Shown: one piece after another, positions 1 through 26,043 of the stretch
Layout: every line of letters begins with the position of its first letter
How positions within the stretch are numbered: the first letter of the stretch is position 1
Source of the DNA: a virus
DNA: 26,043 bases
Virus record (IMG/VR): IMGVR_UViG_3300046368_000068
Span: 1-26,043 of that record
Reading direction: 5' to 3' (one strand)
The notes under the pieces: model-generated
What the model saw: the letters and a program-made list of their open reading frames with translations, nothing else
Told to the model about the DNA's origin: nothing
Databases searched by the model: none
Made by a program: the position numbers and the translations under genes

Positions 1-102
1 CACTATTGGAAAGTGTAGCAAAACAACAACAAAAGCAGTCGACCACAACTGAAACTCGTTTTTTAAAACTAACTAACAATGCAAGATTTACACCAACAGA
101 AA
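1..102 (+). repeat. Leader direct repeat, copy 1
   Basis: These 102 bases are identical to 25558-25659. The repeat consists of a 78-nt untranslated leader plus the first eight codons (MQDLHQQK) of the following gene. After it the two copies diverge completely: here into a membrane protein gene, at the other site into a soluble protein gene. It contains a short inverted repeat (ACACT/AGTGT, complete only in the right-hand copy, where one more upstream base is present) and ends in the A-rich start region 'aactaacaATG'. The identity is seen directly. A role as a shared promoter/leader is inferred. Confidence 0.95.
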
Positions 103-309
103 TTTTTAGATGCTAAATTAGAGCTTGGAACACAAGTACAATTCTTTAGCTTTACATTAACTCAATTATGCTCATATTTAATGGTTTTAGCGTTTCTAAC
201 GCTACTTCTATTGAATTTGATACCAACATACTACACAGAGGTATTAAGTCTTTATACTGGCTCTTTTATCACTATGGTAGTTTTTTACATTATATACGGA
301 ACTAATTAA
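79..309 (+). CDS. Small membrane protein with two predicted TM helices
   Basis: This is a 76-residue protein of unknown function. Residues about 24-48 and 57-73 are almost entirely hydrophobic, giving a helical hairpin anchored in the inner membrane. The N-terminal 20 residues are polar and probably cytoplasmic. The ATG lies in a strong A-rich leader (aactaacaATG), typical of Bacteroidota start regions. The first eight residues, MQDLHQQK, are shared with an unrelated protein encoded at 25636. The 5' end of this gene recurs at 25925, where the window ends. It heads the early gene cluster, so a superinfection or membrane-takeover role is more plausible than lysis, but this is a guess. No family is recognised. 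Confidence 0.8.
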   Translation: MQDLHQQKFLDAKLELGTQVQFFSFTLTQLCSYLMVLAFLTLLLLNLIPTYYTEVLSLYTGSFITMVVFYIIYGTN

Positions 310-323
310 AATCAATAAATATT

Positions 324-797
324 ATGAAAAAAGTAGTAAAAACAGTAAAATCAGATGGCTCTTTTGAGTCGCAATACGGACACTTCTACAAGTGGCTATT
401 AGAGTTTGAAGATGGATTTAAGGGCGAGTACCTATCCAAGACTGAAACTCAAAACAAATTTATAGAAGGTCAAGAGGCTGAAATAGAAGTTAATACAAGA
501 GAGTACAACGGTACTACAATTAACAAGATTAAACCAGCTTCTACGTTTCAAGGTGGGCAATTTAATTCAACTGCAAATCAATCTAACAAGATGTCTAAAG
601 AAGAATGGAACGCTAAAGATTTAAAGAAAGAAACAGCAATAGCAAAACAAGTATCTCTTAAATGTGCTATAGATTATTGTATAGCAAACTCTGGAGGACC
701 AGCAGAAATTATTGAGATTGCTGATGCTTTCAAACAATGGATATTAAACGATGTAAAACCTAAATCAACAAAAAATGGAAACGACCTACCTTTTTAG
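324..797 (+). CDS. Putative single-stranded DNA-binding protein
   Basis: The protein has 157 residues. Residues about 1-60 are rich in alternating beta-strand pattern and aromatic/basic residues, compatible with an OB fold. A Gln/Asn/Ser linker follows, then a helical segment at about 100-140. The C-terminus is NDLPF, very like the acidic tip (D-D-I-P-F) that bacterial SSB proteins use to recruit partners. Its position at the head of the replication genes fits coating of single-stranded DNA during replication. The ATG at 324 follows an AT-rich spacer of 14 bases after the previous stop. The fold assignment is inferred from composition and the tip, not from a clear motif. A recombination annealing protein is the alternative. 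Confidence 0.5.
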   Translation: MKKVVKTVKSDGSFESQYGHFYKWLLEFEDGFKGEYLSKTETQNKFIEGQEAEIEVNTREYNGTTINKIKPASTFQGGQFNSTANQSNKMSKEEWNAKDLKKETAIAKQVSLKCAIDYCIANSGGPAEIIEIADAFKQWILNDVKPKSTKNGNDLPF

Positions 798-5612: not shown

Positions 5613-5722
5613 CCAATATGTCAGTACATCGCATGGGAGAGCTTTCATTTTTCTTACGCAAAATTAAATCTAAATCGTGTGGGTATAGATATACCAAACT
5701 AAAACCAGTTTAAGTTCAGTTA
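5613..5722. other. Intergenic packaging-site (cos) candidate
   Basis: This is the only gap of about 110 bp in the early half, and it lies directly upstream of the small terminase gene, where cos sites of HK97/P27-type phages usually sit. It contains the near-palindrome GGTATAGATATACC (5682-5695, 6-bp arms) immediately followed by an inverted repeat AAACT-N6-AGTTT (5696-5711). The nearby HNH gene fits a cos-cleaving terminase system. A 31-codon frame starting at 5618 also lies here, in the frame a G-tract slip would enter. The repeats are seen. The cos role is inferred. Confidence 0.35.
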
Positions 5723-12061: not shown

Positions 12062-12691
12062 ATGGAATACTATAACTACAACTTTAACACATTAAGAGGC
12101 TCTGACTATGTGCCTTATGGTAAGCTAGTTTTAAAGACTGCTCCAACGTCTACGGTAATATCATTATCAGAGGCTAAAGCATTTTTGAGAATAGACTCAG
12201 ACTATGACGATGACAATACTTATATTACGTCTTTAATTAATGTTGCTACGCAAGTTGTAGAAGAGTTCACTAGACGTAGACTAATGACTCAGACGTACAA
12301 TATATTTTACGATGAGTTCCCTCCTTACATTGACTTACAAGTAGGAGACGTTGCTAGTGTTACTCATATTAAGTATTACGATGCCGACAATACATTACAA
12401 ACCTTAGCAGCATCTAATTACGATGTTGATACTAAGGTAAGACCAGGAAGGATATATGAATCGGAAACTGGAGACTATCCAAACACTTACGAAAGACCAA
12501 ACGCTGTAGAGGTTGAGTTTATAGTAGGTGCTACAGCTAGTGACGTTCCAGCTCCAATAGTACAAGCTATTTATATCATCGTTGGTCGATATTATGAGAA
12601 CCGACAAGATGTTGTTACTGGAACTATTGCTAGTGAATTACCACTAATGGTAGACCACTTATTAACTCCTTACCGATTGCTTGAACTATGA
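12062..12691 (+). CDS. Head-tail connector (HK97 gp6-like adaptor)
   Basis: The 209-residue protein matches the phage connector family (HK97 gp6/phiE125 gp8 kind): LSEAKAFLRIDSDYDDDNTY, helix LINVATQVVEEFTRRRLM, strand/turn region YNIFYDEFPPYIDL, and a C-terminal helix VPAPIVQAIYIIVGRYYENR ending LLTPYRLLEL. The adaptor ring sits under the portal and prevents leakage of packaged DNA. The N-terminal 30 residues (YYNYNFNTLRG...) precede the recognisable domain. The gene starts directly after the capsid terminator and overlaps the next gene by 4 bases. Confidence 0.8.
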   Translation: MEYYNYNFNTLRGSDYVPYGKLVLKTAPTSTVISLSEAKAFLRIDSDYDDDNTYITSLINVATQVVEEFTRRRLMTQTYNIFYDEFPPYIDLQVGDVASVTHIKYYDADNTLQTLAASNYDVDTKVRPGRIYESETGDYPNTYERPNAVEVEFIVGATASDVPAPIVQAIYIIVGRYYENRQDVVTGTIASELPLMVDHLLTPYRLLEL

Positions 12692-14094
12692 TAATAGGCA
12701 AACTAGATAGAAAGTTAAAACTATATACACAGACTTACTCTACTAACGCTTATGGCGAGAGAGTAGTATCTGACAATAGTTACGTTACCATCTACGCAGA
12801 CTTTGATTTCAAAGGTGGTAATACTAACTTCGATGCTGATGCCTTAATCAATGATGAGCGTATAGAATGCCTAATAAGATACAGAACTAACATTGGAGTA
12901 AGCCCACAATATTTTATCTCTAATGGCTCTACTAATTATTCTATCAAGAGTATTAAGGAAGTAGGTCGTAAAGATGCTATGGTGCTTTTATTAGAGAAGA
13001 ATGACGTTGTAGATTTATCACAGACAGCTCCTAATCAATTTGTCTTTACTATTGACACAGAGAACACTTCTAGTGGCTCTAGCTTGAACACTCAATTTAT
13101 GATGCCTTTGGTTAGTAGTGGTAGTTATAATGCTACGGTAAACTGGGGAGATGGCTCTAGCGATACAATAACAAGTTACAATCAACAAGAGGTTACACAC
13201 ACTTATAGTAGTGCTGGACAATACGAAATAAGCATAGAGGGAACATTACAAGGATGGCAATTCAATAACGCTGGAGATAGGCTTAAAATGCTTGATATAA
13301 AACAATGGGGAGTCTTAGATTTGTCTACAGAATCTGCATTTATTGGTTGTACTAATTTAGATGCTAGTGCTACAGACGCTCCTACTGTTTCTACTACATC
13401 TTTAAGAACTATGTTTAAAAATTGCACTAACTTTAATGGAGCGATTGGTAATTGGGATATAAGTACAGTAACAAGAATAGACCAATGTTTTTTCGATTGT
13501 TCTTCATTTAATAAAAGTTTAAATAATTGGAACGTTGGTAATGTTACTAGAATGGATTTTCTATTTTACAATTGTATATCTTTTGACCAAGATTTAAACT
13601 CTTGGGATACTTCTAATGTTACGAATATGTCTACCGTTTTTAGAGGTTGCACACAATTTAACGGAGACATATATAGCTGGGACACTACTAACGTACAAAA
13701 TATGAGCGTTATGCTTTATGATTGCGACTTATTCGACCAATCTCTAGCAGCGTGGAATATAGAAAACGTGACTAACTTTACAAGCTTTATGCAGAACGCT
13801 AGTGGTTTAAGCACATCTAACTACGATGCAACGCTAATAGCTTGGCAAGCTGGAGGACACGATAACGATATTAGTATAAACTTCGGAGGCTCACAATTTA
13901 CAGAGTCAGCTTATGCTGCACGATTTAGCTTAATAGAAGACGATGGTTGGACTATTGTTGATGGAGGTATATTTAACCCAACACCAGCCGATTACATAAG
14001 CATACTAACAACAAGAGTAGAAGCTGCTGGAGGAGTAATAGAGAACACTACAGCTAGTCAGCAATTCTTACAAGACTTAAACGATATTGACTAA
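12688..14094 (+). CDS. Head-tail joining protein fused to PKD and DUF285/BspA-like repeats
   Basis: A 468-residue fusion. Residues 1 to about 112 fit a head-tail joining/stopper protein (SPP1 gp16-like): IIGKLDRKLKLYTQ, a central RIECLIRYR, YSIKSIKEVGRKDAMVLLLEK. Residues about 118-185 resemble a PKD-type domain (ATVNWGDGSSDTI, THTYSSAGQYEISIEG). Residues about 200-372 contain about five repeats of the DUF285/BspA-like kind with the consensus F-N-x-x-[IL]-x-x-W-[DN]-x-[SG]-x-V-T-x-M/I, then F/C-x-x-C. Residues 373-468 are a mixed tail ending ADYISILTTRVEAAGG. The repeats occur in bacterial surface adhesins and suggest a receptor-binding appendage at the neck. A stopper normally has only about 110 residues. 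Confidence 0.75.
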   Translation: MIIGKLDRKLKLYTQTYSTNAYGERVVSDNSYVTIYADFDFKGGNTNFDADALINDERIECLIRYRTNIGVSPQYFISNGSTNYSIKSIKEVGRKDAMVLLLEKNDVVDLSQTAPNQFVFTIDTENTSSGSSLNTQFMMPLVSSGSYNATVNWGDGSSDTITSYNQQEVTHTYSSAGQYEISIEGTLQGWQFNNAGDRLKMLDIKQWGVLDLSTESAFIGCTNLDASATDAPTVSTTSLRTMFKNCTNFNGAIGNWDISTVTRIDQCFFDCSSFNKSLNNWNVGNVTRMDFLFYNCISFDQDLNSWDTSNVTNMSTVFRGCTQFNGDIYSWDTTNVQNMSVMLYDCDLFDQSLAAWNIENVTNFTSFMQNASGLSTSNYDATLIAWQAGGHDNDISINFGGSQFTESAYAARFSLIEDDGWTIVDGGIFNPTPADYISILTTRVEAAGGVIENTTASQQFLQDLNDID

Positions 14095-25124: not shown

Positions 25125-25199
25125 ATGCTTATAATTGAAAAACTTTAACATTTTTTTACTCTAGTAAACTAAAATAAATACACTTTTTTTGTGTAAAAG

Positions 25200-25231
25200 T
25201 TTGCACAGAAGTTTAGAATGTATTACTTTAG
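25200..25231 (+). promoter_or_regulatory. Bacteroidota-type promoter for the 25257 gene
   Basis: TTTG (25200-25203), 20 bp, then TACTTTAG (25224-25231), seven of eight matches to TAnnTTTG. It is followed after about 25 bp by the ATG at 25257 with an A-rich leader (acaaactaaaacaATG). The stretch 25125-25199 is AT-rich, with no gene. This makes the 25257 gene an independent unit between two terminators. Confidence 0.7.
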
Positions 25232-25256
25232 CCAAAGAATTTAACAAACTAAAACA

Positions 25257-25451
25257 ATGACAAATAAAATTAAACTAACTGAAAATTTATCTTTAAATGG
25301 AAAAATTACAAATCTTTCTATAAATGAGAATGAATTAATAATTAAATCAAATAGTCCAATAAGTTGGTCAAGTGCTGAGAGTGTTGCAAAATACTTAATT
25401 AAAAAAGGATATAATAAAATTGAAAAAATTACATTTAAAGAATTACACTAA
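25257..25451 (+). CDS. Hypothetical protein in a separate transcription unit
   Basis: The 64-residue protein has beta-rich residues 1-35 (IKLTENLSLNGKITNLSINE, then NELIIKSNS) and a helix with a strand at the end (AESVAKYLIKKGYNKIEKIT). It is framed by its own promoter (25200-25231) and terminator (25468-25490), unlike the rest of the genome, which is one long series of overlapping genes. This suggests early, constitutive or lysogeny/exclusion-type expression, for example a superinfection or anti-defence protein. No family is recognised. Confidence 0.7.
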   Translation: MTNKIKLTENLSLNGKITNLSINENELIIKSNSPISWSSAESVAKYLIKKGYNKIEKITFKELH

Positions 25452-25467
25452 ATAATATAACAACAAT

Positions 25468-25490
25468 GGGGAGAGCAATCTCCCCTTTTT
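25468..25490 (+). terminator. Terminator after the 25257 gene
   Basis: Perfect stem GGGGAGA/TCTCCCC (25468-25474 and 25479-25485) with a GCAA tetraloop, then five T (25486-25490). It follows the stop of the 25257 gene by 16 bases. Confidence 0.9.
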
Positions 25491-25557
25491 AAAACAACTA
25501 ACAAACGAGAAAAAAGAAAAAAAAGGAGTCACACAGATTGACTAACCAAAATTCTGA

Positions 25558-25659
25558 CACTATTGGAAAGTGTAGCAAAACAACAACAAAAGCAGTCGAC
25601 CACAACTGAAACTCGTTTTTTAAAACTAACTAACAATGCAAGATTTACACCAACAGAAA
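25558..25659 (+). repeat. Leader direct repeat, copy 2
   Basis: Identical to 1-102. The 5' edge of the identity cannot be seen, because the window begins at that base. A short hairpin ACACT-N7-AGTGT (25557-25573) lies at its upstream edge. Stretch 25491-25557 before it is A-rich, without a gene. A weak TTG (25538) with CACTATTG 17 bp on is the only promoter-like match seen. Confidence 0.95.
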
Positions 25660-25842
25660 AAATACATTGTAATTGAGTGCTGTAAATACACGGAAAAAAC
25701 AATAAATGAATTTCAATATAATTGTGAATTTCAAGCAGATAGTAAGTATATGGAATTATTTGAAAGCTATAATTGTGTGCAAGGTCATACAGAAATCATA
25801 TTACAAAAAGGTAAAGTTATCGGTCAAGCGATATTAAATTAG
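25636..25842 (+). CDS. Hypothetical protein sharing the MQDLHQQK start
   Basis: A 68-residue soluble protein. It starts MQDLHQQK, identical at protein and DNA level to the membrane protein at 79, and then differs totally (KYIVIECCKYTEKTINEFQY...). It has two adjacent Cys (residues 14-15) and two further Cys (residues 29 and 46), a beta-rich middle (TEIILQKGKVIGQAILN at the end) and no membrane segment. It is carried on the 289-bp segment (25628-25916) that lies between two copies of the 32-bp repeat and would be removed by recombination. Function is unknown. Confidence 0.65.
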   Translation: MQDLHQQKKYIVIECCKYTEKTINEFQYNCEFQADSKYMELFESYNCVQGHTEIILQKGKVIGQAILN

Positions 25843-25863
25843 TCTTTGGTGGCTATGCTTAAA

Positions 25864-25903
25864 CACCATCACCCCCTACTGAAATAAATAGGGGGTCTTG
25901 GTG
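25864..25903 (+). promoter_or_regulatory. Hairpin before the third leader copy
   Basis: CACCA-TC-ACCCCCTA (25864-25878) pairs with TAGGGGGT-CT-TGGTG (25889-25903), a 13-bp stem with a 2x2 internal loop. No T run follows. A second TGGTG (25847-25851) could pair with the same CACCA, allowing a switch between two foldings between the 25636 gene and the next start region. Confidence 0.5.
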
Positions 25904-25916
25904 GTATAACTAAAAC

Positions 25917-26043
25917 AACTAACAATGCAAGATTTACACCAACAGAAATTTTTAGATGCTAAATTAGAGCTTGGAACACAAGTACAATTCTTTAGCTTTA
26001 CATTAACTCAATTATGCTCATATTTAATGGTTTTAGCGTTTCT
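25917..26043 (+). repeat. Terminal overlap with 71-197
   Basis: The last 127 bases are identical to 71-197. The base before differs (C versus T). This is the sequence signature of a circular or permuted molecule read past its start, with a unit of 25,846 bp. The exact length of 127 equals a k-mer size often used by assemblers, which would explain why the window stops here (inference). Confidence 0.9.
25925..26043 (+). CDS. Partial copy of the small membrane protein gene (cut by window end)
   Basis: This is the 5' end (39 codons plus 2 bases) of the gene at 79-309, identical over the shared length, but preceded by a different leader (...gtggtataactaaaacaactaacaATG). In a circular genome this would be the genuine upstream context of the gene at 79, with the 25636 gene and the 25864 hairpin just ahead of it. 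Confidence 0.85.
   Translation, partial: MQDLHQQKFLDAKLELGTQVQFFSFTLTQLCSYLMVLAF

Follow-up and report, generated by a model that had tools for sequence, protein, structure and literature searches.

The virus record IMGVR_UViG_3300046368_000068 comprises 26,043 bp, is classed as linear in IMG/VR and was analysed over its full length (the window); the features of the locus described here all lie on the plus strand. Close to the 5' end is Z1 (79..309), a fixed gene conserved in relatives L001-L042 and encoding a 76-aa hydrophobic protein, probably a membrane protein, with no convincing family match in PHROGs or Pfam. Adjoining Z1 is the gene for a conserved 157-aa protein (324..797, alignment A3), the model of which (pLDDT 75.7) gives weak fold matches to PrgE and SSBs and tentatively suggests a probable OB-fold protein of the ssDNA-binding type. 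The start of Z1 is contained in a 32-bp element, Y (71..102), which consists of the leader AACTAACA, the ATG and the codons for MQDLHQQK. Y occurs in three exact copies starting at 71, 25628 and 25917; the first is followed by Z1, the second by a different gene, Z2, and the third by Z1 again, truncated by the end of the record. Together with the start-codon leader, the second copy spans 25623..25659 and forms the start of Z2, while the third spans 25912..25948 and forms the start of the cut Z1.

Z2 and the hairpin W behind it are one occupant of a hypervariable slot in a group of uncultured siphophages. The slot is located after a 351-aa exonuclease-like gene (phrog_704) and the promoter-like region downstream of it, and before the fixed gene Z1. 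At its upstream edge, the promoter-like region and slot leader (25190..25256, TTTGCACAGAAGTTTAGAATGTATTACTTTAGC ... AACAAACTAAAACA) are conserved 5' of the slot contents in relatives, and this region is a putative early promoter. In the window the slot would hold three modules, namely a 64-aa ORF (cassette 1), the noncoding module X and the Z2-W unit. Cassette 1 (25257..25451) has no assigned function and is closed by a terminator-like hairpin at 25468..25490. The surrounding block (25234-25457) matches contig L232 at 84%, and nothing else aligns in the 3.2 kb of L232 that we fetched.

Module X (25503..25622) is a noncoding stretch of about 120 nt closed by a 7-bp stem (AAACGAG/CTCGTTT), with a T-run after the stem and a fold z-score of -2.25. 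It is present in eight other viral contigs with varying gene order: in L065 it directly follows the promoter-like region and precedes Z1, in L066 it lies between an ORF and Z1, in L124 and L126 before ORFs, and it also occurs in another phage type (L122/L123). As its position differs among contigs, X behaves as one further module of the slot, a separate noncoding unit and not the leader of Z1 for which the first-pass annotation had taken it. No Rfam match was found for X. Pairing in the stem is complete and nearly invariant, leaving too little variation for covariation to support or reject the fold, and X is a possible phage small RNA.

The third module consists of Z2 (25636..25842), a 68-aa ORF with no assigned function taken from the ORF list, and W (25843..25911), a strong hairpin (z = -3.8) and probable terminator that ends the Z2 unit. 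W was recognized from its fold and from contig comparison; it also lies 3' of other ORFs in other contigs and phages, with compensatory stem changes (CTA/TAG versus CGCA/TGCG). The only relative of Z2 among viral contigs is in L064, and none was found in genome contigs or phages. A single-sequence structure model of Z2 was unusable (pLDDT 53.5). Z2 and W together (25623-25921) match L064 at 91% over 300 bp, with the edges of the match at the leader, while this 7.4-kb contig otherwise barely aligns to the window (10% of the contig aligned). The L064 copy of Z2 starts with MQDLHKPK, and the KP start is the commoner one among Z1 starts in this phage group; no Z1 was seen in the L064 contig. These starts suggest a Z1-type slot as the possible place where Z2 acquired its 5' end.

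The start-codon leader marks the boundaries of the slot. A search for AAAACAACTAACAATG with up to two mismatches returned four occurrences in the window, all at slot boundaries, where 0.11 would be expected. In 34 of 44 genomes Z1 is preceded by the form AACTAACA-ATG; of the 37 gene starts listed for the window, two carry it, those of Z1 and Z2.

Comparison of 43 relatives showed how variable the slot is. Its length ranges from 0 to 718 bp, against 663 bp in the window, and in 12 of the 43 it is 46 bp or shorter. Close relatives carry unrelated slot contents despite flanks that are 96-98% identical: the slot measures 278 bp in L037 and 6 bp in L040 between flanks of 97-98% identity, and L036 and L039 (12 versus 203 bp) as well as L038 and L040 (383 versus 6 bp) differ likewise with flanks within the 96-98% range. 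Relatives contributed 30 of the 33 slot ORFs considered, the window two and L064 one; they group into 26 families, for which PHROGs, Pfam and PADLOC had next to no matches. We infer that the slot genes are early accessory genes with a role in host interaction. Two units of the window recur in phages that are otherwise unrelated to it, Z2-W in L064 and cassette 1 in L232. As a separate observation, the slot ORF METLTQWQVWV of L038 (2536-2682) is also present in L237/L238, beside the same fixed gene as in L064, and is apparently a third cassette common to different backbones from two phage groups.

Units could be gained and lost by homologous exchange, of the recombinase or annealing type, at the start-codon leaders. 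For Z2, this exchange would occur at the 32-bp Y common to the 5' ends of Z2 and Z1, and a Y-Y deletion would excise exactly 289 bp and leave the start of Z1 intact. The phage encodes a NinG/Rap-type junction nuclease in addition to the exonuclease-like gene (phrog_704) and, more tentatively, the probable OB-fold ssDNA-binding protein next to Z1, and no integrase, transposase or invertase was found among the Pfam families of the window proteins. Homologous exchange or annealing at the leaders during coinfection would be the simplest route. More broadly, and tentatively, otherwise unrelated phage lineages might draw on one stock of tiny cassettes, either single-gene or noncoding, that enter an equivalent early-operon slot via a conserved start-codon leader, by homologous exchange and with no integrase, the loss of a cassette being visible within one natural population.

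We then considered the two ends of the record. Positions 1-102 are identical to 25558-25659 (100%), and these 102 bp are the longest prefix of the window that recurs elsewhere in it. Positions 25917-26043 are likewise identical to 71-197 (100%), the longest recurring suffix being exactly 127 bp. No other direct repeats of at least 24 bp were found in the window, which excludes chance. On re-examination of the repeats, the coordinates that the first-pass annotation had given for X, Y and the followers Z1 and Z2 proved exact, the two unit sizes it had derived (25,846 and 25,557 bp, a difference of 289) are arithmetically correct, and its argument that X-Y-Z1 and X-Y-Z2-W-Y-Z1 cannot share one circle holds. 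What it had missed is that the 3' duplication equals an assembler k-mer length, 127 bp, and that the prefix match is shorter than that.

Taking the 127-bp length by itself as a guide, the record appears to be a lasso-shaped de Bruijn contig. The closed loop (71-25916) would represent the dominant genome unit of 25,846 bp, holding X-Y-Z2-W-Y-Z1, and the duplication of 71-197 at 25917..26043 would be the k-mer overlap that closes it. The vertex at 71-197 would have two entries, one via W-Y and one via X-Y. The first 70 bp (1..70), which repeat the 3' half of module X and are delimited by the 102-bp prefix match, would be a dead-end tip and the only carrier of X-Y-Z1. The suffix does join the internal positions 71-197 and leaves this tip unconnected. 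The X-Y sequence common to tip and loop measures 102 bp, which is less than k, and the tip therefore fails to connect with the loop; another 25 bp would be needed for it to reach the k = 127 vertex (25533-25659), and a gap of this size indicates that few reads supported X-Y-Z1. In a Poisson coverage model, 150-bp reads would give X-Y-Z1 a depth of about 5-40x and 250-bp reads a lower one; these figures are rough owing to multi-k assembly. Terminal repeats of k-mer length are known assembly products (CheckV paper, PMC8116208), and a JGI metaSPAdes run used the k list 33, 55, 77, 99, 127, with k = 127 last (PMC11584781). In the 20 related contigs checked, no end overlaps that would confirm k = 127 were found. 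The window resembles the overlaps of the CheckV paper in that an exact repeat of one k-mer length marks the closure of a circle or concatemer, but it differs from them in that the 3' end joins the internal positions 71-197 and leaves a 70-bp tip, which is why the record was classed as linear rather than circular. A true 127-bp terminal repeat was rejected, because the match is internal and its length is that of an assembler k.

Virion ends were also rejected as the cause of the contig ends at 1/26043, because relatives end elsewhere. In ten of 20 related contigs the sequence stops exactly at GTACAT (window position 5629), and several contigs resume at about 5641-5647, upstream of the small terminase gene. 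The interval 5629-5647 is a candidate cos site whose overhang, some 11 nt long, would be missing from linear contigs. The window reads through 5629, so its source DNA was joined there, in circular or concatemeric form, and the break at 1/26043 is an assembly-graph effect. We found no relatives of this phage among cultured phages at the DNA level (best TerL about 44%) and no host prophages in GTDB genomes. In one contig, L112 (contig G018, 21829-23344), the large terminase gene is present in two open frames corresponding to residues 1-385 and 399-522 of the window's large terminase, which may reflect a frameshift, an insertion or a sequencing error.

The tip itself probably derives from a low-abundance, cassette-less form of the same phage that lacks the 289-bp Z2-W unit, and would then be real minor DNA. 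The exact sequence of the X tail joined to Y is present in two other contigs, L065 and L066, and is followed by Z1 in both. X-Y-Z1 is plausibly a natural genotype because it is contiguous in these two contigs, because the slot is empty or holds other contents in near relatives and because the tip is identical to this phage. Neither contig is the source of the tip, since their Z1 differs from that of the window at several bases inside the 127-bp vertex and the tip lacks those differences; a near-identical cassette-less sibling is the best candidate. Across the IMG/VR contigs searched, the X tail and Y lead into Z2 only in this phage, and the change may therefore have been either a loss or a gain. 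The first-pass annotation had set a mixed population against an assembly artefact, and each is partly right: the joined form was made by the assembler, as the 127-bp overlap and the tip indicate, and X-Y-Z1 is a plausible genotype in nature.

The main rival is that the tip arose from chimeric reads, by template switching between Y copies 289 bp apart during library PCR, with only the 25,846-bp form in the sample. Exact 32-bp repeats at this distance can fit within one library fragment, and a short tip unlinked to the loop is what rare reads would give. However, with 150-bp reads and k = 127, the 70 consecutive specific 128-mers of the tip require at least 3-4 distinct reads, and X-Y-Z1 is a natural arrangement in other contigs; we consider a pure artefact possible but less likely. 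Another co-occurring strain, in which Z2 was never present, is a very improbable source of the tip, with no loss in this population: relatives with X directly before Z1 do exist and several samples contain two or more relatives, but a divergence of about 4% would give several differences in 197 bp, whereas the 70 bp of X and the 127 bp of Z1 match this phage without a difference, and L065 and L066 differ at several Z1 bases. Least credible is a switch akin to phase variation, with frequent interconversion between two abundant forms, and the units of 25,846 and 25,557 bp that the first-pass annotation took to coexist do not appear to do so at comparable levels. A single gene unit bracketed by a direct repeat has a geometry that permits deletion, but an abundant deletion form would cover the missing 25 bp, join the loop and give a prefix match of 127 rather than 102 bp, re-insertion would require a donor, and the Pfam families found in the window proteins include no site-specific recombinase.

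This leader-bounded hypervariable slot is a variant of known phage accessory loci. As in phage morons and hypervariable accessory loci, small unrelated genes are present or absent between close relatives with the flanks intact, and some units end in a terminator, here the terminator-like hairpins at 25468 and in W. Each moron has its own promoter, whereas the units here seem to sit behind a single conserved promoter-like region and share a start-codon leader; in addition, one unit is noncoding and one shares N-terminal codons with the downstream fixed gene. Integron cassettes are similar in that an array of single-gene units occupies one set location under a shared promoter and gains or loses members there. 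In contrast to integrons, no integrase was found here in Pfam searches, no attC-like site was noticed, and the boundary consists of the leader and homology. Cluster K mycobacteriophages carry a 13-bp Start-Associated Sequence with the consensus GGGATAGGAGCCC at many start codons, and the likeness lies in a short conserved sequence directly 5' of the starts of genes from different families (PMC3203893). The leader described here, AACTAACA-ATG, differs from it in sequence and is found at 2 of 37 starts, so it does not qualify as such an element; it is confined to one slot, where it marks exchange boundaries, while the cluster K sequence is spread over the nonstructural half of the genome.

The slot is a marked address for the exchange of small early genes among uncultured siphophages, and it supplies dozens of uncharacterised candidate genes; in other phages, small early genes may often serve host takeover or anti-defence. 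A minor cassette-loss variant can leave a scar in public contigs, recognizable as a k-length suffix overlap combined with a shorter prefix overlap, and such scars could be mined at scale for gene gain and loss within populations. Elsewhere in the window, the ORF at 12688-14094 has an N-terminal part that resembles a head-completion protein and a long C-terminal part with repeats; in the scan of window proteins, DUF285 had a strong match to one protein and PKD a match to one, probably the product of this ORF.
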